Shown: positions 18,801-50,155 of the stretch, piece by piece | Numbering within the stretch: position 1 is the first letter of the stretch | How the letters are laid out: every line of letters begins with the position of its first letter | DNA from: a virus | Length of the DNA stretch: 55,042 bases | IMG/VR virus record: IMGVR_UViG_3300044491_000241 | Location: 1 to 55,042 of that record | Direction: 5' to 3' (one strand) | Translations under genes and position numbers: made by a program | Notes under the pieces: generated by a model | What the model was told of the DNA's origin: nothing | Seen by the model: only the letters and a program-made list of their open reading frames with translations | The model's database searches: none

Positions 18801-21800
18801 ATGGCAGGTTATCAGAGAAAAAGTGCTGGGGATATTGTTGCGGGGGCGGTTGTTAAAGCTGCACCAGTAGACACAGAGTTTAATTGTCTAAGAGACGCAT
18901 TCAACGAATCCACAGGTCACAAACACGATGGATCTTCAACAGAAGGTGCTTACGTTCCTATTATCGCAGACTCAGACGCAAATAATAAAGTCTGTGTTGA
19001 TACATCAAATAATAGATTAAGCTTCTTTACAGAGGTTTCTTCTGCTGCGACTGAGCAAATGAGGGTTCAAGACGGAGCCATCGTACCTGTAACGGATGAT
19101 GACATTGACCTTGGTATTACAACTACAAACAGATTTAAAAATCTATTTCTATCAGGTAATGCTACGGTTGGAGGAACATCCACTGTAACAGGAAACAGTA
19201 CTTTTGCTGGTACTCTTGGAGTTACAGGTGTTGCTACTTTTTCTGATACAGTTTGTGTGCCAGCTTTTAAAGCTACAGGGACATCAACTCTAACTACTGT
19301 GGACATCAATGCAGGTAATATTGATGGCACTGTTATCGGTGCTTCTACTGCTGCTGCTGGCAGCTTTACTACAGTTAGTACGTCAGGACAGGGTACTTTT
19401 GCTACAGTCGATGTCAATGGCGGTACTATTGATGGTGTTATTATTGGCGGCACTACGCCAGGTCTTATAACTGGTACAACCATCACAGGTACTAGTCTTG
19501 TAGGTCCAGTTACAGGTAATGTCACAGGTAACATTACTGGTAACGTAACAGGTGACCTAACAGGTAATGTTGCAGGAAACGTAACAGGTGATGTCACTGG
19601 GGATCTCACAGGAAATGTTACAGGAGATGTAACAGGAGACCTGACTGGTAACGTTACAGGTAATGTAACTGGTAATGTAACTGGTGACTTGACAGGTGAC
19701 GTAACTGGAGATGTAACAGGTGATGTTACAGGCAATGTTACAGGAAACGTAACAGGGAATGTCACTGGTAACCTAACAGGAAATGTTACAGGTAACGTAA
19801 CTGGTGACTTAACTGGGGATGTTACTGGTGACTTAACTGGTAATGTTACTGGTGACTTAACTGGTGATGTCACAGGAGATGTTACTGGAGATCTGACTGG
19901 TAATGTTACTGGAAATGTTACAGGTGACGTAACTGGTGACGTAACTTCAACAGGAACGTCTACCTTTACAACCTTGCAGCTAACAGGGGATATGGATGCT
20001 AACAGTAATAAGATTACAAATTTAGCAGAGCCTGTTTCTGATTCTGATGCAGCCACAAAATTGTATGTAGATAATGCAGTTGAAGGTTTGGATGTAAAAG
20101 GTTCTGTTAGAGTTGCTACAACTGCAAACATTACTTTGAGTGGTACTCAAACTATTGATGGTATTGCTGTAGTTGCAGACAACAGAGTTCTTGTTAAAGA
20201 TCAAAGCACAGCTTCAGAGAATGGTGTGTACGTAGTTGCTGCAGGTGCTTGGTCTAGATCAGATGACGCAGATACTTTTGATAAACATGTAGGTGCTTTC
20301 TTCTTTGTCGAAGAAGGTACAACAAATGGTGACAATGGTTTTGTAGGCACTGCAGATTCTGGTGGTACTCTTGATACTACTGACATAACATTTGTACAAT
20401 TCTCAGGTGCAGGTCAGATTACAGCAGGTACTGGTCTTACTAAGTCTGGAAACACTATTAATGTTGTTACTGCTGACTCAGGGAGAATTGTAACAAATGC
20501 AGATAATATTGATCTTGCTACTACAGGTGTGAGTGCAGGAACTTATAAGTCTGTTACCACAGATGTTTATGGTCGTATTACAAGTGGTACAAATCCAACT
20601 ACTCTTTCTGGTTATGGTATTGCTGATGCCTATACAATTACATGCTTAGATACTTTACTTGATGCTAAGTTAGATGTAGCAGGAGATACAATGACTGGGA
20701 ACCTTTCAATGGGTTCTAACAAAGTCACATCTACTGCAACTCCAACAACTGATGATGACCTTACTCGTAAAGGTTACGTTGATAGTCAAGATGCTCTTAA
20801 GTTTAACTTAACTGGTGGGACTCTTACTGGTGATTTAACTCTTGGTAGTAATAAAGCCACATCTACAGCTACTCCTACAACAGATGATACTCTTACACGT
20901 AAGGGCTATGTTGATACTCAACGTGATACAAGACTAGCTTGTACAGGTGGGACTTTATCAGGAAGTGTAGAAACTACTTGTCCTATTATTTCTTGTTACA
21001 CACCTGCCAATGCATGTGACCTGACTAATAAGTGTTACGTTGATGGTATATTACAATCAGCTACTGCAGCCTGTACTTCTGCTGCTTGTGCATTAGCAAG
21101 TCAGACTGCTGCAGCAACCTCTGAAACAAATGCAAGTAACTCAGCTTCTGCTGCTGCTACTTCAGCCAATAATGCTGCTACATCTTATGACGATTTTGAT
21201 GATAGGTACCTTGGTGATAAGGCATCAAATCCCTCTGTTGATAACGATGGAGATGCCCTTCTGACAGGAGCAATCTACTGGAACTCAACAGACAATGCAC
21301 TAAAAATTTATACAGGTTCTGCATGGAACAGTGCAGCATTTACTCTTGGTGATGCTCTTACTGCTGTTTCTGAGGATACTTCTCCAACACTAGGTGGAAA
21401 CTTAGCAGGTAACTCTCAATGTATTACTGGTGTTGCAAACATTTGTGCTACTAACCTTTATGGCGCTGTAACAGGTAATGTGACAGGAAACGTAACTGGC
21501 AATGTTTCAGGTAATCTTACAGGTAATGTAACTTCTTCTGGCACAAGTTGTTTTGCTACAGTTTGTACAACTGGTAACAGTACTCTTGTAGGAAACCTTA
21601 CTGTTAATGGAAACACTACCCTAGGTAATGCAGCTAGTGACACTGTAACTCTTACAGCAGACGTTGCTTCTAATATTATTCCAAGTGCTGATAGCACTCA
21701 CAGCCTAGGTGACAGTTCTAACTACTGGTCACATGGATACATAGATGCTATCACAACAACAGGAGCAGTTGTAATTGGAGGAGATCTAACTGTTAATGGT

Positions 21801-22817
21801 ACAACCACTACTGTAGCTACGACAAACACAGTTGTATCAGATTCCTTGATAGAATTAGGAAATGGAACATCTGGTTCCCCATCTAATGACGCAGGTATTG
21901 TTATTGAACGTGGTAGCAGTGCCAACGCATTCATGGGTTTTGATGAGTCAGCAGACAAGTTTATTGTAGGTACAGGTACATTTACTGGTGCATCTACAGG
22001 AAACCTTTCTATTACAACAGGTACACTTGTAGCTAACGTAGAGGGTAATGTAACAGGAGATGTCACTGGTAATGCTGATACTGCAACAACACTAGAAACT
22101 GCACGTACAATAGGTGGTGTTTCTTTTAATGGTTCAGCTAACATAAACCTACCAGGTGTTAACACTGCAGGAAACCAGAACACATCTGGTAATGCAGCTA
22201 CAGCAACTGCTTGGGCTACAGCTAGAACACTTTGTATTTGTGGGGATGCTACAGGCTCTGCTTCTATTGATGGATCTGGTAATGTAAACTTGACGGTTGC
22301 AGTAGTGGATGATAGCCACAACCACACAGTAGCTAACGTTGATGGACTAGCTACCTGCTTATCTAATAAAGCTTCTACTACCTGTGCAGGTACTATTGTT
22401 ACCTGTTTAGCAGGTAAGGCAGCAATAGCTGGTGCAACTACTCAAAACTTTAGTGCGCTATGTGCAATTGGTGCAAATTGTATGATAGCCCCTGTTATTT
22501 GTGGTACGACCTGTGTCGTAGCACCTGACATCAATGCAACGTCTGACTGCAGATGCAAGAGTAACATTGTTACAGTTGAGAATGCTTACTGCAAGTTAGG
22601 TCAAATACGTGGGGTTAACTACAACTGGAAAGACTCAGGAAAATACACAATAGGTGTTATTGCACAAGAAGTAGAAGAAGTTCTTCCAGAACTTGTAACT
22701 ACAGATGACGATGGCATGAAGGCAGTAAACTATAACGGCATCGTAGGTGTTCTAGTTGAAACAGTGAAATGCCTTCAAAGCAAAGTAGAGGAACTAGAGA
22801 ATGGCTCTAAAGGTTAG
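18801..22817 (+). CDS. Large tail fibre/spike with TG-N/D-V repeats and S74 chaperone
   Basis: 1338 aa. N-terminal virion-binding part (about 1-235), then 36 tetrapeptide repeats of Thr-Gly-(Asn/Asp)-(Val/Leu/Ile) at residues 238-381. The middle contains repeated modules ending in LTRKGYVDSQ or similar and an Ala/Ser/Asn-rich coiled coil. A second short TGNV block lies near 890. The C-terminus from about 1248 is an intramolecular chaperone of the peptidase S74 type: S1248-D1249 (SDCRCKSN), NWKDSGKYTIGVIAQEVEEV and a terminal coiled coil. The chaperone would trimerise and then cleave itself off before Ser1248. The C-terminal half is enriched in Cys. Host-recognition role by position. Confidence 0.88.
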   Translation: MAGYQRKSAGDIVAGAVVKAAPVDTEFNCLRDAFNESTGHKHDGSSTEGAYVPIIADSDANNKVCVDTSNNRLSFFTEVSSAATEQMRVQDGAIVPVTDDDIDLGITTTNRFKNLFLSGNATVGGTSTVTGNSTFAGTLGVTGVATFSDTVCVPAFKATGTSTLTTVDINAGNIDGTVIGASTAAAGSFTTVSTSGQGTFATVDVNGGTIDGVIIGGTTPGLITGTTITGTSLVGPVTGNVTGNITGNVTGDLTGNVAGNVTGDVTGDLTGNVTGDVTGDLTGNVTGNVTGNVTGDLTGDVTGDVTGDVTGNVTGNVTGNVTGNLTGNVTGNVTGDLTGDVTGDLTGNVTGDLTGDVTGDVTGDLTGNVTGNVTGDVTGDVTSTGTSTFTTLQLTGDMDANSNKITNLAEPVSDSDAATKLYVDNAVEGLDVKGSVRVATTANITLSGTQTIDGIAVVADNRVLVKDQSTASENGVYVVAAGAWSRSDDADTFDKHVGAFFFVEEGTTNGDNGFVGTADSGGTLDTTDITFVQFSGAGQITAGTGLTKSGNTINVVTADSGRIVTNADNIDLATTGVSAGTYKSVTTDVYGRITSGTNPTTLSGYGIADAYTITCLDTLLDAKLDVAGDTMTGNLSMGSNKVTSTATPTTDDDLTRKGYVDSQDALKFNLTGGTLTGDLTLGSNKATSTATPTTDDTLTRKGYVDTQRDTRLACTGGTLSGSVETTCPIISCYTPANACDLTNKCYVDGILQSATAACTSAACALASQTAAATSETNASNSASAAATSANNAATSYDDFDDRYLGDKASNPSVDNDGDALLTGAIYWNSTDNALKIYTGSAWNSAAFTLGDALTAVSEDTSPTLGGNLAGNSQCITGVANICATNLYGAVTGNVTGNVTGNVSGNLTGNVTSSGTSCFATVCTTGNSTLVGNLTVNGNTTLGNAASDTVTLTADVASNIIPSADSTHSLGDSSNYWSHGYIDAITTTGAVVIGGDLTVNGTTTTVATTNTVVSDSLIELGNGTSGSPSNDAGIVIERGSSANAFMGFDESADKFIVGTGTFTGASTGNLSITTGTLVANVEGNVTGDVTGNADTATTLETARTIGGVSFNGSANINLPGVNTAGNQNTSGNAATATAWATARTLCICGDATGSASIDGSGNVNLTVAVVDDSHNHTVANVDGLATCLSNKASTTCAGTIVTCLAGKAAIAGATTQNFSALCAIGANCMIAPVICGTTCVVAPDINATSDCRCKSNIVTVENAYCKLGQIRGVNYNWKDSGKYTIGVIAQEVEEVLPELVTTDDDGMKAVNYNGIVGVLVETVKCLQSKVEELENGSKG
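19512..19943 (+). repeat. 36 x 12-bp protein-level repeat in fibre gene
   Basis: Thirty-six consecutive 12-base units encode Thr-Gly-X-(Val/Leu/Ile). Synonymous positions vary between units (aca/act, ggt/gga, gta/gtt/gtc), so the array is conserved as protein but not as DNA. This contrasts with the identical copies at 548-643 and indicates an old, selected repeat. Confidence 0.9.
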
Positions 22818-23046: not shown

Positions 23047-24531
23047 ATGGCGTATAAGATTAATGGCACTACGGTTGTCGATAACAGCAGGAACGTATGT
23101 GCCTGTTGTGTTACCTCGTGTTGTATTACAGCTAGTTCTAGGATGGATGTACCATCAGGCGATACAGCCAGTAGACCAGGATCTCCTGCTACTGGTTCTA
23201 TTTATTTTGATACAGATGAAACTTCACTTGTAGCCTATGATGGTTCAGCTTGGGCTTCTGTAGGTGGTGGTGGATATCCTCAAATAGCTGCTCATTGCAA
23301 TGCTGTACCTACTATAAATGGTACAATTCAGGATAGGCAAGTAAAAGTACCAGTCTCTTTTAATAATATGGTCCACAGTATAAATGGTTCTTACAAAGCA
23401 GGTAATCCCTACAACAATTCTCTTTTTGTAGGTCTGAAAACAACAGGTACTACTCTAGAACTATGTAACGTCAGTGGCGGTGGTACTAGCACACTAGGTG
23501 CTTGGTTCACAGGAGGTAGTTTTGTATCCCCAGATAAAAATTTCTATTCTTTTAGTACTGGGGGTGAAAGTAATTTCTGTGTCTGCGGTAAAAGTTTTGG
23601 ATTCTCACCAGAAAAGATTTACCAGATGTCTTCCTGTAACAGGTCCACAAGTGTAGCTGGTACTATTATGACCCTAGGGGCTTATTCAGGTAACACCAAA
23701 ATATTTGGGATTCATGCGTCTGGGCATTTTGGTATGTGGTGTTGTACTGGCACTTTAATATGTATGGGTCGAATATGTCAGAACAATCAATCTTTTGCTA
23801 ATGCCTATGGTTTATTTACAACGTGTTCTGGTGATATTGGCCTGTTCCTTTGTAACGGTAAATTTATTGTTCATTTAGATGTTGATACTTTATCTATTCA
23901 ATGTCAGTTTTGCTACACCATTACAGAGCCTACAAAGATGGATGGGCAAGGTGGAGCACCAAGAGAAACAACGACTGCAGTTGGATTTCCTGGTTGCTGT
24001 AAGTACGGGTACGTTTGGGATAAAGTCAATTGTTGTATGTACAATATTATTTCTAGCAACGGCTCAAATCAGTTTGAAACCAAGCCAACTTGGATGTCTG
24101 TGAATGACAGTCTTTACTTTAAAACCTTTGGGTGCTACGGGGGTGGAAAATGTTGTACTAAACTAGAAAGGGTTAACGCAAATGGCACTAGAGACTGTTA
24201 TATAAGTGTTTGCGGTGGACTGAGTTATTTTTGGACCACTGATTTTGATACGTATATTGCTAATAATTTAGGTGAAAAGTTAATAAGTGTTCCTGGCACT
24301 GCCTGTGATAATGGGATATTTCCAGCATACGCCGTTAACGTAGACGTTAGTGTTAGTCATAGTGCGTGGAAAAGTGGAGTTTTAAGCTGTATTTTTCCTT
24401 CTGGTGGTGCCATGTCTTGCACAGCATCACCTGCTGCTAGTCAAGGCACACACAGTATTTACGTTGTGCAACTTAACTGTACCTACTGTATACAATCTTG
24501 TCTTTGTGTAACGGATGTTGTACGGACTTAA
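23047..24531 (+). CDS. Cysteine-rich tail fibre-like protein
   Basis: 494 aa. N-terminus repeats the previous gene's module (KINGTTVVDNSRN, then IYFDTDETSLVAYDG). The remainder is a beta-rich, Gly/Ser/Thr-rich receptor-binding-like body with 34 Cys (6.9%), many as CC or CxC pairs (VCACCVTSCC, MWCCTGTLICMGRICQ, SCLCV). No signal peptide, so the protein folds in the reducing cytoplasm; the Cys may bind metal or form disulfides once outside. It ends the fibre block. No enzymatic motif recognised. Confidence 0.8.
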   Translation: MAYKINGTTVVDNSRNVCACCVTSCCITASSRMDVPSGDTASRPGSPATGSIYFDTDETSLVAYDGSAWASVGGGGYPQIAAHCNAVPTINGTIQDRQVKVPVSFNNMVHSINGSYKAGNPYNNSLFVGLKTTGTTLELCNVSGGGTSTLGAWFTGGSFVSPDKNFYSFSTGGESNFCVCGKSFGFSPEKIYQMSSCNRSTSVAGTIMTLGAYSGNTKIFGIHASGHFGMWCCTGTLICMGRICQNNQSFANAYGLFTTCSGDIGLFLCNGKFIVHLDVDTLSIQCQFCYTITEPTKMDGQGGAPRETTTAVGFPGCCKYGYVWDKVNCCMYNIISSNGSNQFETKPTWMSVNDSLYFKTFGCYGGGKCCTKLERVNANGTRDCYISVCGGLSYFWTTDFDTYIANNLGEKLISVPGTACDNGIFPAYAVNVDVSVSHSAWKSGVLSCIFPSGGAMSCTASPAASQGTHSIYVVQLNCTYCIQSCLCVTDVVRT

Positions 24532-24630: not shown

Positions 24631-25557
24631 ATGAAAACTGTCTTTATGATTGACGGTGGTGCGGGGAGAGCTATTGCAGCAATTCCTGCTCTCATCAAGT
24701 ACAGTAAGAGTAATCCTGACTTTAGGGTTATAGTACATGGTTGGGATACTTTGTACTGGGGTATTCCTGAGCTTCATGACAAGGTGTTTAACCCAGACCA
24801 GAAGGGTGCCTTTGAGCAGTTTTTTATGGATGCTGATATAGTTCTTTCCCCAGAACCTTACAGAGTACCTGGGTACTACAGACAAGAAAAGTCTTTGTCA
24901 GAGGCCTTTGACTACTTGATTAACGAAACAGACGATCACTCTGACCTTGTTGCTCCTATGCTTAAAACAAATAGAAACGAGGAGTTACAAGCTGCTAACT
25001 TTATGCAGCAAGTTAGGCAGCAGCAACAGAAGCAGAAGACTATTGTTATACAGCCCTTTGGTCGATCAATAGAAAAGCCACAAGAGGGTGTTCTACTAGA
25101 CCAGTCTTCTCGTTCTATTAATCCTGATACGTATATCAAACTGGTAAAGAAGTTAGCTACTAAATACAACCTAGTGTTGTTTGCAGAGAAGGCCTTCTGG
25201 ATGGAAGAAGATACGTACACAATGAAGCCTGAGGCTGACTTGCGTATGTGGACTGCCTTTATTGATGCAGCAGACTATTTCATTGGTTGTGACTCTGTTG
25301 GTCAACATATGGCTCGTGCTATGAATAAACCTGGGACTGTTGTCATTGGTTCTACCTTTGCTATCAACACTTCCTATCCTAATTACTTTAACATTATTGA
25401 AAGGGATGTTCAGAAGAAATACTCACCTATTCGTATCTCAGGTCTTGAGTCTCACTTGGCAGATAGAGCTAATGAAGCTACTGTTGAGTTCACAGACGAA
25501 GAGATCAACAAGATGTACGAGTCTATTGTAAAAGACATTGAAAAGAAGGTGAAGTAA
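24631..25557 (+). CDS. GT9-like glycosyltransferase (heptosyltransferase-like)
   Basis: 308 aa, soluble, GT-B type. The N-terminal half begins with a Rossmann strand and Gly-rich loop (FMIDGGAGRAIAAIPAL); the C-terminal half has IVIQPFGRS and FIGCDSVGQHMARAMNKPGT, matching the nucleotide-sugar binding region of GT9 ADP-heptose:LPS heptosyltransferases. Downstream genes make ADP-heptose, so a heptose transferase is the simplest reading. The acceptor could be host LPS core or a phage glycoprotein. One base separates it from the carbamoyltransferase. GT9 membership is by motif and context, not by alignment. Confidence 0.72.
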   Translation: MKTVFMIDGGAGRAIAAIPALIKYSKSNPDFRVIVHGWDTLYWGIPELHDKVFNPDQKGAFEQFFMDADIVLSPEPYRVPGYYRQEKSLSEAFDYLINETDDHSDLVAPMLKTNRNEELQAANFMQQVRQQQQKQKTIVIQPFGRSIEKPQEGVLLDQSSRSINPDTYIKLVKKLATKYNLVLFAEKAFWMEEDTYTMKPEADLRMWTAFIDAADYFIGCDSVGQHMARAMNKPGTVVIGSTFAINTSYPNYFNIIERDVQKKYSPIRISGLESHLADRANEATVEFTDEEINKMYESIVKDIEKKVK

Positions 25558-25558
25558 T

Positions 25559-27274
25559 ATGAACATTCTAGGAATTAACCCAGGACATAACGGTGCAGCT
25601 GCTCTCCTTGTAGACGGTGAGCTTGAGTTCTACATTGAAGAAGAACGTCTGTCTCGTAGTAAGTATGACGGTAACCCCTTCATGGGTATTCTTGAGGGAT
25701 TAAAGTATGGTATTGACGTTCTGGTACTGGGTGGAACAAGCCCACAGCACCCTAGTCTGCCTTGGACAGGGGAAGATCCTTACAGTGCGTTAATCAGGAA
25801 GCACAACCCTAAAGTCCAAGTTATAAACGTAGGGCATGCACATCACCTTGGTCATGCTGCCTCATCCTTCTACAACTCAGGCTTTGAGGATGCTGCTGCT
25901 GTTATTGTGGACGGGTCTGGTACACGCCAAGAAATCCAAGTAAATGAAGAGGGTCAGAAGAACCCTGGTTTTGAGACTGAGACAATCTTCAACTGTGACT
26001 ACGAAGAGGGTATCAAGCCAGTGTTTCAGTCCTTCGGTGGTAATGCTGATACACAACGTGTAGTAGGGGATGCCATTGAGATGGACTCAGCTATTACCTT
26101 AGTTAAAGCATACGAGGCTGTATCTGAGTACTTAGGCTTTGGGTTCATCGAAGCAGGTAAGACTATGGGTCTTGCACCTTACGGTAAAAACGATGATCTT
26201 ATCCCTTCTCTTTTCTACGGTGGGCGTGGTAACAAGAACGTCTTTGTTCCTAACTATCCTGCTGGTGCTCATATTGACCACACACGTCACCCATACCTGA
26301 CACTGAAGCAAGACCCACGTACTTGGCACAATGACCCTTCTAAAGTAACAGATGCTGCCAAGAACCTAGCATGGGCTGTCCAGGATGAGACACAACGTCT
26401 TGTTGGTGACCTGATTGAGAAGGCTGTTAAGCTTACAGGCAAGAAGAACATCGTTATTGCTGGTGGCTATGGACTCAACTGTGTAGCCAATTACTACTAC
26501 CAGAAACGGTTCCCTGACCTGAACATCTATATAGATCCCATCTCACACGATGGTGGTACTGCACTGGGTCTAGCACAGTTGGTTCACTACACAGAGACTA
26601 AGGACAAGACTATTCGTCCACTAAAGACCCTGTACCTTGGACCTGAACGTGAGGAGTCATACGACTTCGGTGATATCAAAACAACAGACGTAACACCAGA
26701 AGACATTGCTGCTCTTCTCGTTGATCGTAAGATTGTTACTATGTTCCAAGGTCGATCAGAGGCTGGTCCTCGTGCTCTAGGTAATCGTTCTATCTTGTAC
26801 GATCCCACTGACCCTAAGGGTAAGGATTACGTCAACAAGGTAAAAGGTAGAGAGTGGTTTCGTCCCTTTGCTGGTTCTATGTTGCAGGAGGATTTTGAGG
26901 AATGGTTCGAGACATACGGAATGAAAGAGTCTCCCTTCATGATGTATGCAATGGACTTCAAGCTGGCTAAACATGGTGAAGTTCCTGCTATCACACACGT
27001 AGACGGTACTTGCCGTATTCAGACTGTGACAAAAGAACAGAACCCTGTGTACTACAGCCTGATCAAAGTCTTCAAAGAGAAGACTGGTGTACCTATAGTG
27101 TTCAACACTAGCTTCAACCTTGCAGGTGAGCCTCTCGTTGAGACCATTGCGGATGCTGTACATACAATCAAGAACTCAGACCTTGAGTACCTGTACGTAC
27201 CAGAAGTAGGGAAGTTGTTGCACTACCCCTACAACGATAAGGAAGTAGAGATAGTTGAGGAGAAAGCTGCTTAA
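25559..27274 (+). CDS. NodU/CmcH-family O-carbamoyltransferase
   Basis: 571 aa, full length for the family. The N-terminal Kae1-like domain has the metal/nucleotide motifs NPGHNGAAALL, VGHAHHLGHAASSFY and DPISHDGGTALGLA. The C-terminal YrdC-like half has FQGRSEAGPRALGNRSIL, REWFRPFAGS and PIVFNTSFNLAGEPLV. These enzymes use carbamoyl phosphate and ATP to carbamoylate a sugar hydroxyl; a related enzyme carbamoylates LPS-core heptose in Pseudomonas (WapO). Here the partner is likely the heptose made by the neighbouring genes. Its stop overlaps the convergent phosphatase stop by four bases. Confidence 0.92.
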   Translation: MNILGINPGHNGAAALLVDGELEFYIEEERLSRSKYDGNPFMGILEGLKYGIDVLVLGGTSPQHPSLPWTGEDPYSALIRKHNPKVQVINVGHAHHLGHAASSFYNSGFEDAAAVIVDGSGTRQEIQVNEEGQKNPGFETETIFNCDYEEGIKPVFQSFGGNADTQRVVGDAIEMDSAITLVKAYEAVSEYLGFGFIEAGKTMGLAPYGKNDDLIPSLFYGGRGNKNVFVPNYPAGAHIDHTRHPYLTLKQDPRTWHNDPSKVTDAAKNLAWAVQDETQRLVGDLIEKAVKLTGKKNIVIAGGYGLNCVANYYYQKRFPDLNIYIDPISHDGGTALGLAQLVHYTETKDKTIRPLKTLYLGPEREESYDFGDIKTTDVTPEDIAALLVDRKIVTMFQGRSEAGPRALGNRSILYDPTDPKGKDYVNKVKGREWFRPFAGSMLQEDFEEWFETYGMKESPFMMYAMDFKLAKHGEVPAITHVDGTCRIQTVTKEQNPVYYSLIKVFKEKTGVPIVFNTSFNLAGEPLVETIADAVHTIKNSDLEYLYVPEVGKLLHYPYNDKEVEIVEEKAA

Positions 27275-27918
27275 GGTAGCTTCTCAACAAAGCTAAGAAG
27301 GTTGTCGAAGACCTTTGTCTTCTTTCTTAACTTCTCCTTAGAGAACTTTGATAACTCTTCTTCAGTAACCACGCCATGTCCTGTACGCACTAGGATCGGG
27401 GTGGCACCAATTCTTTCAGCAGCTTTGAGGTCAGACATCTTGTCCCCTACATAGAAACCACCCTGTTTAAAACGGGCCTTTCCCTCAAAGATTTCTTTCT
27501 CTGCTCTTTGAAACATACCAATATTAGGTTTGGCATATATATCTTCTTTTAAGGAGGACTCAGAATAAAAGAGGCCATCAATCGTGTATATACCAGCCCT
27601 GCCAAATATCTCAAACATACGTTGATGCACAGATTCTACCTGCTCATGGGTTTGTAACCCCTTAATAATACCACCTTGGTTAGTAAGTATAACTACTTTG
27701 TACCCTTTAATACGTAGCTTATGAATGGCTGCTAAAGACTCAGGTATAATTTCAAAGTCTTCGGGGTCTGTGATGTAGTGTCCTTTGTCTACGTTGATAA
27801 CACCGTCACGATCTAACCCTACAATAGCTTTAGGAAAGACTGTAGGCCAATCTGGTGGTAACTCCTGCTGAGGTTGTTGACTTGGTTCTTGTGTGATAAT
27901 ATGCTTGAATCTAGACAT
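27271..27918 (-). CDS. gmhB: GmhB-like heptose bisphosphate phosphatase (HAD), inverted
   Basis: 215 aa. HAD motifs: D36-x-D38 (LDRDGVINVD), T79-N80-Q81 (LTNQGGI), K130 (YAKPNIGMF) and D159/D163 (VGDKMSDLKAA). The segments around motif I and the C-terminus (ILVRTGHGVVTEE) match GmhB, which removes the 7-phosphate from heptose 1,7-bisphosphate. The Cys/His zinc loop normal in GmhB between motifs II and III is absent (SSLKEDIYAKP instead). A 25-residue Gln/Pro N-terminal extension precedes the domain. It is the only minus-strand gene in a 39-kb plus-strand block. A polynucleotide 3'-phosphatase is a weaker alternative. Confidence 0.8.
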   Translation of the reverse strand: MSRFKHIITQEPSQQPQQELPPDWPTVFPKAIVGLDRDGVINVDKGHYITDPEDFEIIPESLAAIHKLRIKGYKVVILTNQGGIIKGLQTHEQVESVHQRMFEIFGRAGIYTIDGLFYSESSLKEDIYAKPNIGMFQRAEKEIFEGKARFKQGGFYVGDKMSDLKAAERIGATPILVRTGHGVVTEEELSKFSKEKLRKKTKVFDNLLSFVEKLP

Positions 27919-27935
27919 ACTAGGGTATTTACCTC

Positions 27936-28337
27936 ATGAAGAAAGTTTTTGTTAACGGTGCATTCGATGTGTTGCACTCTGGTCACCTAGATCTTCTTGA
28001 GTTTGCAGAGATGTTAGGCGGTCATTTGCTAGTAGCTATTGACACAGATAGGCGTATTGAGTATAACAAGGGTATCGGGAGACCTTTTAATTCTTTGTCA
28101 ATACGTAAACATATAATGTCTATGTTAAAGCCTGTCAATAGTGTCAAAGTATTTGATACAGACGAGGACTTAGTAGGTATTATAAAAGATTACCAGCCTG
28201 ACGTAATGGTAAAAGGATCTGACTGGAAGGGAAAGACAATACTTGGGGAGGAGTACTGCAAAGAAATAGTATTCTACGAGAGAACCAATGGTCAGTCCAC
28301 AACAAAAACAATTCAAGATTTTATTGATAGGCGATAG
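27936..28337 (+). CDS. hldC: ADP-heptose synthase nucleotidyltransferase (HldE C-domain-like)
   Basis: 133 aa stand-alone cytidylyltransferase-fold domain. NGAFDVLHSGH carries the H14-x-G-H17 motif, then the later DVMVKGSDWKGKTILG and the terminal STTKTI block found in RfaE/HldE nucleotidyltransferases. It would join heptose 1-phosphate with ATP to ADP-heptose. The start lies 17 bp from the divergent phosphatase start. It overlaps the kinase gene downstream by 50 bp. Confidence 0.85.
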   Translation: MKKVFVNGAFDVLHSGHLDLLEFAEMLGGHLLVAIDTDRRIEYNKGIGRPFNSLSIRKHIMSMLKPVNSVKVFDTDEDLVGIIKDYQPDVMVKGSDWKGKTILGEEYCKEIVFYERTNGQSTTKTIQDFIDRR

Positions 28338-29043
28338 TTGCTACGATGATTACCACTACGGCAGCATAAACAGAATAAGCCCAGAAGCTCCTGTCCCTGT
28401 CTTAGATATGGATAGAGTTGTTACAAAAAAGGGCATGACTTTTAATGTCTTTAATAACGTACTTGCTCTTGGTGCAGAAGCTCACATCATAACAGAGTTC
28501 AGTGAAAGAAAACACAGGTATCTTGACAGTAAGACTGGTCAGCAACTCCTTAGAGTAGACGAGAAGATTGATAAGAAGATTGTTGATACGGCAGAGGAAA
28601 ACCTTAACGATTACGATGTAGTCATTGTCTCAGACTATAACAAGGGTTTCTTCAACGAAGATGACATCACTGAAATTATAAGTAAGTATGATGGTCCCAT
28701 TTTTGTTGATACTAAGAAGAGAGATCTATCTATCTTTGATGGATGCTTTGTTAAGATTAATCAGTATGAGTACGAAGCCTCTGAAAGGCTGACAGAAGAA
28801 CTCATAGTCACCTACGGCTCAAAGAAAGTCGAGTACAAAAACAAGACCTACACCCCTCCTAAAGTGGGAGCCTACGATGTGTGTGGAGCAGGTGATACAT
28901 TTTTAGCTGCTCTTGCCTATAAGTACTGTGAAGAATATAATATGGATGAAGCTATAAAGTTTGCAATGGTTGCTGCTTCACTTACAGTACAACACATAGG
29001 TGTGTATGCACCCACACTAGAGGAAATACAAAATGCGGCTTGA
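28288..29043 (+). CDS. hldA: PfkB-family heptose kinase (HldE N-domain-like), short form
   Basis: 251 aa. The N-terminus ILLIGDSCYDDYHYG and INRISPEAPVPVLD match the HldE kinase domain, and the C-terminal PfkB signature is DVCGAGDTFLAALA with the catalytic Asp in GAGD. It would phosphorylate D-glycero-D-manno-heptose 7-phosphate at O-1. It is some 65 residues shorter than bacterial HldE kinase domains; the usual PGGAANVA loop reads KKGMTFNVF and part of the lid is missing. The gene follows, rather than precedes, the nucleotidyltransferase, reversing the order within bacterial HldE fusions. Confidence 0.82.
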   Translation: MVSPQQKQFKILLIGDSCYDDYHYGSINRISPEAPVPVLDMDRVVTKKGMTFNVFNNVLALGAEAHIITEFSERKHRYLDSKTGQQLLRVDEKIDKKIVDTAEENLNDYDVVIVSDYNKGFFNEDDITEIISKYDGPIFVDTKKRDLSIFDGCFVKINQYEYEASERLTEELIVTYGSKKVEYKNKTYTPPKVGAYDVCGAGDTFLAALAYKYCEEYNMDEAIKFAMVAASLTVQHIGVYAPTLEEIQNAA

Positions 29044-29386
29044 GGGCGTAGTGGAAAAGGGTTGGGGGTCTGAGTTGATCTGGGCAACCAACGACAAGTA
29101 TTGCGGTAAGTTCATGAACTTTAAGCAGGGTGCTAAGTTCTCAATGCACTTCCACAGAGAGAAAGATGAGACTTGGTTTGTTCTTACTGGTAAGTTCTTA
29201 GTAACTTGGATTGATACTGATGATGCAAGTGAGCACGTAGAAGAGCTTAACGAGGGTGACACTTGGCATAACCCACCTCTGGTTCCACACCGCATTACCT
29301 GCCTAGAAGAAGGAGTAGTTGTTGAAGTATCTACACCAGACTCTGTTGAGGATAACTATCGTGTAGCTAAGGGCGACAGCCAATAA
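29033..29386 (+). CDS. Cupin, sugar-phosphate isomerase-like
   Basis: 117 aa, a single cupin barrel. Metal ligands H39, H41 and E46 or nearby (SMHFHREKDETWFVLTG), second motif GDTWHNPPLVPHRI with H86. The overall pattern is that of the type II mannose-6-phosphate isomerase/WbuC-like cupins seen in sugar clusters. It overlaps the kinase by 11 bp. It could isomerise or epimerise a heptose precursor, for instance replacing GmhA, but that is a guess. Confidence 0.75.
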   Translation: MRLEGVVEKGWGSELIWATNDKYCGKFMNFKQGAKFSMHFHREKDETWFVLTGKFLVTWIDTDDASEHVEELNEGDTWHNPPLVPHRITCLEEGVVVEVSTPDSVEDNYRVAKGDSQ

Positions 29387-30156
29387 TGAAGATTTTAGTT
29401 ACTGGTGCAAGTGGGTTCATTGGTCAGAACATGGTCACTGGACTCAGAGAAGAGCACGAAGTTATACCTCATGAGTGGGGTCAGACGATCTCTAAGGTAA
29501 ATGAGGTAGATTGGGTTGTACACTTAGGTGCCATAAGTTCTACTGTAGAACAAAATATAAGTAAGATATATAAGCAAAACCTAGACTTCTCTATTAATCT
29601 CTATGAGGAGTGTATAAAGAACAACGTAAATTTTCAGTTTGCTAGTAGTGCTTCTGTGTACGGGTTGAAGTCATCCTTCAAGGAGAGTGATCCTCTTGAT
29701 CCCCAGAACCACTACGCTCGTAGCAAGGCGATGTTTGAGAAATACGTAGAGCTAAGAAAAGCTCCTATTATTACTCAGACGTTTCGATACTTCAACGTGT
29801 ATGGGCCACACGAAGACCACAAAGGCGGTCAGGCAAGCCCTCATACTCAATTTACTAAACAGGCTAAGGAGACTGGTCTTATAAAACTCTTTGAGGGATC
29901 AGAGAAATATAAGAGAGACTTCATAAACGTAGCTCAGATTGTAGACCACCACAAACGTTTCTTTTCTGTAGAGGAGTCAGGTGTCTGGAACATGGGTACG
30001 GGTGTAGCTAAAAGCTTTTATGACGTGGCTAAAGAGATAGCCCGATACCATGCAGCTAAACTAGAGTACATCAAAATGCCACAGGTCTTAAAAAATAACT
30101 ACCAAGAATTTACACAAGCAAACACGTATAAGCTTCGTAAGACTTTATTGCTATAA
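29386..30156 (+). CDS. hldD: HldD-like ADP-heptose 6-epimerase (SDR family)
   Basis: 256 aa extended SDR. NAD(P) loop G7-A-S-G10-F-I-G13, HLGAISSTVEQN, catalytic Y110-x3-K114 (HYARSK) and SSAS at 87-90. The HldD-specific YGPHEDHKGGQASPHTQF and LFEGSEKYKRDFINV segments are clear. It converts ADP-D-glycero- to ADP-L-glycero-D-manno-heptose. About 50 residues shorter than E. coli HldD. Its start uses the last A of the cupin TAA. This gene makes the heptose assignment of the cassette the most secure. Confidence 0.88.
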   Translation: MKILVTGASGFIGQNMVTGLREEHEVIPHEWGQTISKVNEVDWVVHLGAISSTVEQNISKIYKQNLDFSINLYEECIKNNVNFQFASSASVYGLKSSFKESDPLDPQNHYARSKAMFEKYVELRKAPIITQTFRYFNVYGPHEDHKGGQASPHTQFTKQAKETGLIKLFEGSEKYKRDFINVAQIVDHHKRFFSVEESGVWNMGTGVAKSFYDVAKEIARYHAAKLEYIKMPQVLKNNYQEFTQANTYKLRKTLLL

Positions 30157-50078: not shown

Positions 50079-50155
50079 TGGCCCACCCTGCAGGACTCGA
50101 ACCTGCAACCTACTGCTTAGAAGGCAGTTGCTCTATCCAGTTGAGCTAAGGATGG
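50079..50155 (-). tRNA. tRNA-Arg (anticodon UCU), CCA encoded
   Basis: Minus-strand cloverleaf: acceptor CCATCCT paired to AGGGTGG with one G-U pair, D-arm GCTC/GAGC, anticodon stem ACTGC/GCAGT with loop CTTCTAA (anticodon TCT), T-arm GCAGG-TTCGAGT-CCTGC, discriminator G and encoded CCA. It reads AGA/AGG, codons common in this AT-rich phage. Co-directional with flanking early genes. No integrase is present, so use as an attachment site is unlikely. Confidence 0.95.

Follow-up and report, generated by a model that had tools for sequence, protein, structure and literature searches.

A fibre-linked cassette of putative ADP-heptose enzymes with a candidate cupin isomerase in a marine HMO-2011-type phage

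Sullivan and co-workers reported in 2010 that seven 'LPS' (lipopolysaccharide) genes, with no function given, co-occur in three cyanophages (PMC3037559); the set includes T4-GC 304, 305, 307, and 308. In this study, we analysed a viral record of 55,042 nucleotides (IMG/VR IMGVR_UViG_3300044491_000241, positions 1 to 55,042; this whole stretch is called the window below). A block at 24631–30156 of the window holds seven intact open reading frames (ORFs) in the order GT9-like transferase, carbamoyltransferase, GmhB-like phosphatase, nucleotidyltransferase, kinase, cupin, and epimerase. T4-GC 304, 305, 307, and 308 are here identified as the nucleotidyltransferase, kinase, cupin, and epimerase, respectively, and the window cassette is a fresh version of a module that cyanophages were known to carry. 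The cyanomyovirus 'LPS' cluster (P-SSM2 gp307–gp313, S-CAM1, S-CAM3, and S-SSM7; T4-GC 302–308), whose rearranged gene order also occurs in Sf-FS3, shares with it the GT9-like, carbamoyltransferase, nucleotidyltransferase, kinase, cupin, and HldD-like epimerase genes, the overlaps between genes, and a position near tail-fibre or neck genes. However, it has a HAD protein of roughly 110 aa resembling EcbF/BcbF instead of the GmhB-like enzyme, carries the epimerase on the opposite strand, and sits in a large myovirus rather than in a 55-kb HMO-2011-type phage. Compared with the ADP-heptose pathway, the window has homologues of the kinase, phosphatase, nucleotidyltransferase, and epimerase, but it has no SIS-type GmhA and has a cupin in addition; its kinase falls about 60 residues short of the HldE domain, and the kinase and nucleotidyltransferase are separate proteins. 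Our best explanation, held with moderate confidence, is that this fibre-module-linked cassette makes and uses a nucleotide-activated heptose, with the cupin as candidate first enzyme, and decorates fibres or a host glycan other than the LPS core.

Families were assigned with Pfam, NCBIfam, and PHROG profiles together with comparison to the PDB, and the seven ORFs and the family proposed for each in an earlier sequence-only reading agree with the profile searches. The kinase (28288..29043, + strand, 251 aa) is a short PfkB protein of the HldE-N/HldA type whose gene overlaps that of the nucleotidyltransferase. It matches TIGR02198 (HldE domain I) at 7e-42, below the equivalog cut-off, and a profile of its family matches the solved structure of HldA (4e84) at E=1e-37, with the next best kinase at 6e-13. 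The phosphatase (27271..27918, − strand, 215 aa), a candidate heptose-1,7-bisphosphate 7-phosphatase, matches GmhB PRK08942 at 3e-37, also below the cut-off. Its nearest solved structure is GmhB 4pnh (1e-19), and the DRDGVIN, TNQ, and DxD motifs are present; the protein contains no cysteine, and a Cys-based zinc loop is therefore impossible. The nucleotidyltransferase (27936..28337, + strand, 133 aa; PHROG 7878) is HldE-C/HldC-like, matching TIGR02199 (HldE domain II) at 8e-28 with 97 bits vs 69 bits for TagD. The epimerase (29386..30156, + strand, 256 aa), a putative HldD-like ADP-heptose 6-epimerase, matches TIGR02197 (HldD) at 5e-64 with 216 bits against a cut-off of 274.6. Its nearest solved structure is E. 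coli HldD 1eq2 (2e-42; best non-HldD structure, 3e-15), and it retains the YxxxK and RYFNVYGP motifs. Judged by sequence, the kinase, phosphatase, and epimerase are thus closest to solved heptose enzymes, and the four proteins as proposed for the ADP-heptose steps are closest to HldA, GmhB, HldE-C, and HldD, although among solved structures the nucleotidyltransferase is nearest to TagD. Running the HldA, HldC, HldD, GmhB, GT9, and NodU profiles, as that reading had suggested, returned matches to the heptose families, with HldA, HldC, HldD, and GmhB below their equivalog cut-offs.

The GT9-like transferase (24631..25557, + strand, 308 aa; PHROG 8954), a predicted ADP-heptosyltransferase, matches Pfam Glyco_transf_9 at E=0.0015 (18.4 bits, below the cut-off of 22) and TIGR02201 (heptosyltransferase III) at 2.8e-6. 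A sequence profile of its family found no match in the PDB, and the fold search alone succeeded: in a Foldseek search with an AlphaFold2 model (pLDDT, the predicted local distance difference test, of 88.1), the top 30 PDB matches were all WaaF, WaaC, TibC, or GT9 proteins. The model thus points to the ADP-heptosyltransferase (GT-B) fold anticipated from the sequence, behind a weak sequence match. The DSxGQH motif is invariant in 37 viral homologues, and so is an Arg at position 13 in the family; it may take the place of the catalytic Asp13 of WaaC. The autotransporter heptosyltransferases (BAHT) TibC and Aah are alike in that a heptosyltransferase fold is among the top Foldseek matches, and TibC is a precedent for heptose on proteins (PMC4358343). 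However, an iron finger of four cysteines is a BAHT feature (PMC4358343), and the phage transferase, with one Cys in its 308 residues, has none; membership in BAHT was therefore rejected.

The adjoining gene (25559..27274, + strand) encodes a full-length NodU/CmcH/TobZ-type O-carbamoyltransferase of 571 aa, as had been proposed. Both of its domains score over the cut-off (Carbam_trans_N, PF02543, 2e-22; Carbam_trans_C, PF16861, 4e-62), and solved structures are matched at 2e-52 (TobZ) and about 1e-52 (7xb6). Outside the window lineage, the HldD-like epimerase is present in all 19 loci with the GT9-like gene vs 12 of the 57 without it, and the carbamoyltransferase directly follows the GT9-like gene in 22 of 23 loci. 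The three genes thus behave as a set, and this linkage would fit the transfer of L,D-heptose and its carbamoylation. The proposal that the phage makes, transfers, and carbamoylates a heptose gains from the pathway and from both linkages, whereas the LPS core as acceptor is weakened by the host data given below.

Only GmhA had been named as missing from the pathway, and this is true of the window and of every examined relative of the cassette type. When whole records were searched with the curated profile PF13580, SIS/GmhA had no match in the window or in any of 26 cassette-type virus records (nine of these being cyanophage genomes), and GmhA was found in none of 18 further kinase-bearing virus records. 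A separate query with an E. coli GmhA sequence matched E. coli-derived DNA at 97%. Two phages with a genuine GmhA, Cr30 and the huge phage LR756504, both lack a cupin of this kind. In loci retrieved by the kinase, which makes the count unbiased toward the cupin, the cupin is present in 24 of 28 with the nucleotidyltransferase vs 3 of 27 without it (p=2e-8, kinship ignored). Two of the four cupin-less exceptions come from a single contig, in whose record a cupin lies at a distance of 15 kb; the record of another holds a possible cupin remnant.

The cupin (29033..29386, + strand, 117 aa), a candidate heptose-7-phosphate isomerase, has an intact metal-ligand motif (GX5HXHX4EX6G...H) and a cupin profile match at 2e-9, and the metal ligands are kept in 17 of the 17 cupins compared. 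Its family profile matches D-lyxose isomerase (2e-6), L-ribose isomerases, and mannose-6-phosphate isomerase (PMI). Because these relatives include cupin sugar isomerases, the cupin is a candidate non-orthologous GmhA, and such a substitution is reasonable since the GmhA reaction has a six-carbon analogue in the conversion of fructose-6-phosphate to mannose-6-phosphate. That the cupin might replace GmhA had been raised as an aside in the sequence-only reading; the co-occurrence and the absence of GmhA strengthen it, and the replacement itself stays a proposal. This first-step question is the new element of our analysis. A bolder joint claim, which we advance tentatively and consider rather doubtful as a whole, is that the cupin represents a new, non-orthologous class of sedoheptulose-7-phosphate isomerase, kin to PMI and lyxose isomerase and present in hundreds of marine phages, that supplies heptose for fibre heptosylation and carbamoylation in hosts otherwise not making heptose. 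The name cysteine dioxygenase, given to this family in PHROG and RefSeq, is unsupported; the family matches general cupins and isomerases.

The sequence-only reading had expected such a gene set to be unusual in a phage, and this did not hold. The same gene order was found in about 48 interior IMG/VR loci fetched by the transferase or the kinase (complete set in 46), a count that takes in overlapping loci from the same contigs and is not one of independent loci; with the rearranged cyanophage version and the 2010 report, it makes the cassette widespread in marine phages. The literature examined on HMO-2011-type and Roseobacter clade-affiliated (RCA) phages does not mention the cassette genes. 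The ratio of nonsynonymous to synonymous substitution rates (dN/dS), where dS was estimable (NG86, against seven relatives, with some synonymous sites saturated), is 0.03–0.18 in all seven genes, which are thus under strong purifying selection. The recurrence of the order in dozens of contigs and these ratios place the cassette far beyond chance.

Judged by its portal, capsid, terminase, and tail genes, the window, with a genome near 55 kb, belongs to the HMO-2011 group of marine phages. The closest roseophages are CRP-9 and CRP-13 (portal, 83% and 75% identity; major capsid, 80%), and the host is therefore probably an RCA-type member of Rhodobacteraceae. CRP-9 and CRP-13 share with the window the N-terminal part of the fibre and a portion of the virion protein encoded after the cassette, whereas the stretch between these flanks holds other fibre and structural genes, and the cassette was not found in either phage. 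The cassette is therefore part of a fibre module that can be exchanged. Six of its genes lie on the strand of the structural genes (+) and the phosphatase alone on the minus strand; the last four ORFs, for the nucleotidyltransferase, kinase, cupin, and epimerase, form a run of overlapping genes.

HldD over the cut-off was found in none of 100 genomes sampled from the likely host family (that of the Rhodobacteraceae metagenome-assembled genome (MAG) G034), and a convincing GmhA-like gene in only 5 of them; the corresponding figure for GmhA in the family of the Prochlorococcus genome G015 is about 20 of 81. The LPS of Synechococcus WH8102 has neither heptose nor 3-deoxy-D-manno-octulosonic acid (KDO) (PMC4515613), yet phages isolated on WH8102 carry heptose genes: Sf-FS3 has the full cassette, and Sf-CH5 has sugar genes without a nearby GT9/carbamoyltransferase pair. 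Because of the heptose-free LPS and the genome counts, it is unlikely that the cassette simply tops up a heptose-LPS pathway of the host. The same LPS, free of heptose and KDO, and the lack of HldD in the sampled Rhodobacteraceae weaken the LPS core as acceptor, and the product would probably decorate fibres or a non-standard host glycan.

We propose the following scheme for the cassette. The cupin, as a candidate stand-in for GmhA, would convert sedoheptulose-7-phosphate to heptose-7-phosphate. From their sequences, the kinase, phosphatase, and nucleotidyltransferase are predicted to make ADP-D,D-heptose, and the epimerase to convert it to ADP-L,D-heptose. The GT9-fold enzyme may then transfer the heptose and the carbamoyltransferase cap it, as the fold and the gene linkage suggest. 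The likeliest acceptors are fibre proteins of the phage itself or a surface glycan of the host that is distinct from the heptose-containing LPS core. Given the position of the genes and the host genomes, this decoration presumably belongs to an adsorption or anti-readsorption programme. For ocean phages, an 'LPS cluster' with poor annotation thus becomes a concrete, testable pathway with a defined candidate for the missing enzyme. If the scheme is true, hosts that have no such pathway receive a complete one from their phages, and an abundant group of marine phages encodes sugar chemistry of its own within its fibre module.

Several observations weigh against this scheme. All NCBIfam equivalog scores fall under their cut-offs, and the proteins are divergent and several of them short; the best solved match of the nucleotidyltransferase is TagD; and the kinase family also occurs without the nucleotidyltransferase, so the kinase by itself is not heptose-specific. 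The cupin family profile also matches oxalate decarboxylases and other cupins, the cupin model is that of a generic cupin (structural neighbours include KdgF, oxalate decarboxylase, and lyxose isomerase), members of the family stand by themselves in certain cells and viruses, and contig L099 holds the cupin as well as a SIS gene that adjoins a GHMP-type kinase. The host assignment, drawn from portal similarity, also belongs here. The divergence and shortening of the enzymes, the TagD match, and the kinase relatives in clusters without the nucleotidyltransferase would suit an activated sugar other than heptose, the kinase and nucleotidyltransferase having descended from heptose enzymes and acting on another phosphorylated sugar or a polyol. 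We regard this as improbable: several enzymes are independently nearest to heptose enzymes, two different HADs serve as the phosphatase (GmhB-like in one lineage, EcbF-like in the other), and the predicted fold of the transferase is that of an ADP-heptosyltransferase. Alternatively, the pathway does make heptose, but heptose-7-phosphate comes from the GmhA of the host and the cupin is employed otherwise, for example in tailoring or binding the activated sugar. Cupins are functionally diverse, this family also lies outside heptose clusters, L099 has it together with a SIS gene, and the Prochlorococcus family offers a fair number of GmhA-like genes. Such genes are rare in the probable host family, however, and the cupin nearly always accompanies the kinase and nucleotidyltransferase and is absent from the GmhA-carrying phages, so we consider a host-supplied first step unlikely, if a serious contender.

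The acceptor alone separates our scheme from one in which the cassette modifies host LPS or capsule, not the virion, for superinfection exclusion or prevention of re-adsorption, which was the first of the two options in the sequence-only reading. Surface modification is the classic role of phage sugar genes, and carbamoyltransferases act on bacterial surface polysaccharides. Glycosyltransferases of pelagiphages have also been interpreted as host-surface modifiers (PMC7029224). The position inside the fibre module and the heptose genes in phages of the heptose-free WH8102 speak against it, and we find this version plausible while leaning slightly the other way. The location of the cassette, within the fibre module and on the strand of the structural genes, speaks for virion decoration or a late-infection change of the surface. 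Non-functional filler DNA, an option mentioned for the cyanophage LPS clusters (PMC3037559), has next to no probability left; the dN/dS ratios contradict it, and the order and motifs are conserved across very different phages while the phage itself is a compact one of 55 kb.

The cyanophage relatives include a misannotated gene. The 'phosphoheptose isomerase' of several RefSeq cyanophage records (P-SSM2 gp311, L071:10740-11084, and its counterparts in L072, L073, L074, L075, and L076) is the HAD protein of roughly 110 residues, with a weak match to the EcbF/BcbF capsule phosphatase family and without a SIS fold, and it was rejected as the missing GmhA. Given this match, cyanophages fill the phosphatase slot with a small HAD and the window lineage with a GmhB-like one, and the annotation of these records is corrected from isomerase to phosphatase. 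In nearly all window-lineage relatives (L002-L068), as in the window, the block is plus-strand apart from the GmhB-like gene, which runs on the minus strand 17 bases from the divergent nucleotidyltransferase gene. One window-lineage cassette (L039:10001-14130) has no recognised phosphatase between the carbamoyltransferase and the nucleotidyltransferase. Near the kinase family in L108, S-SM2 (L075), and P-TIM68 (L087) lie E1-like (transketolase/pyruvate-dehydrogenase type) and zinc alcohol dehydrogenase genes, suggesting a different sugar branch.

The cellular loci retrieved with the cupin are largely phage-like contigs binned into MAGs and therefore do not reveal a cellular donor. Contigs titled archaeal, planctomycete, or Neomarinimicrobiota MAGs (L088-L090, L112, and L113) look viral and are probably misbinned; in L112 and L113, a tail-sheath-like gene and a fibre-like gene of 2125 aa adjoin the cassette. 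A stand-alone cellular cupin homologue occurs in a Rickettsiales MAG and in Marinoscillum (L111 and L114), in a conserved neighbourhood without heptose genes. At L099:8795-11438, a cupin/PfkB module stands beside a second apparent heptose module composed of a GHMP kinase, the SIS gene, and a HAD-nucleotidyltransferase fusion.

Upstream of the cassette in the window, a repetitive, Ser/Thr-rich tail-fibre gene (18801..22817, + strand) has its N-terminal part in common with the fibres of the cassette-less CRP-9 and CRP-13 (tblastn). A Cys-rich fibre-like protein (23047..24531, + strand) adjoins the cassette and has no match in the compared CRP-9 and CRP-13 regions; its cysteine content of 6.9% is unusual for a phage fibre. 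A promoter scan gave no signal above shuffles. A single minus-strand tRNA-Arg (TCT) gene lies at 50079–50155, in the half of the genome with the replication genes.

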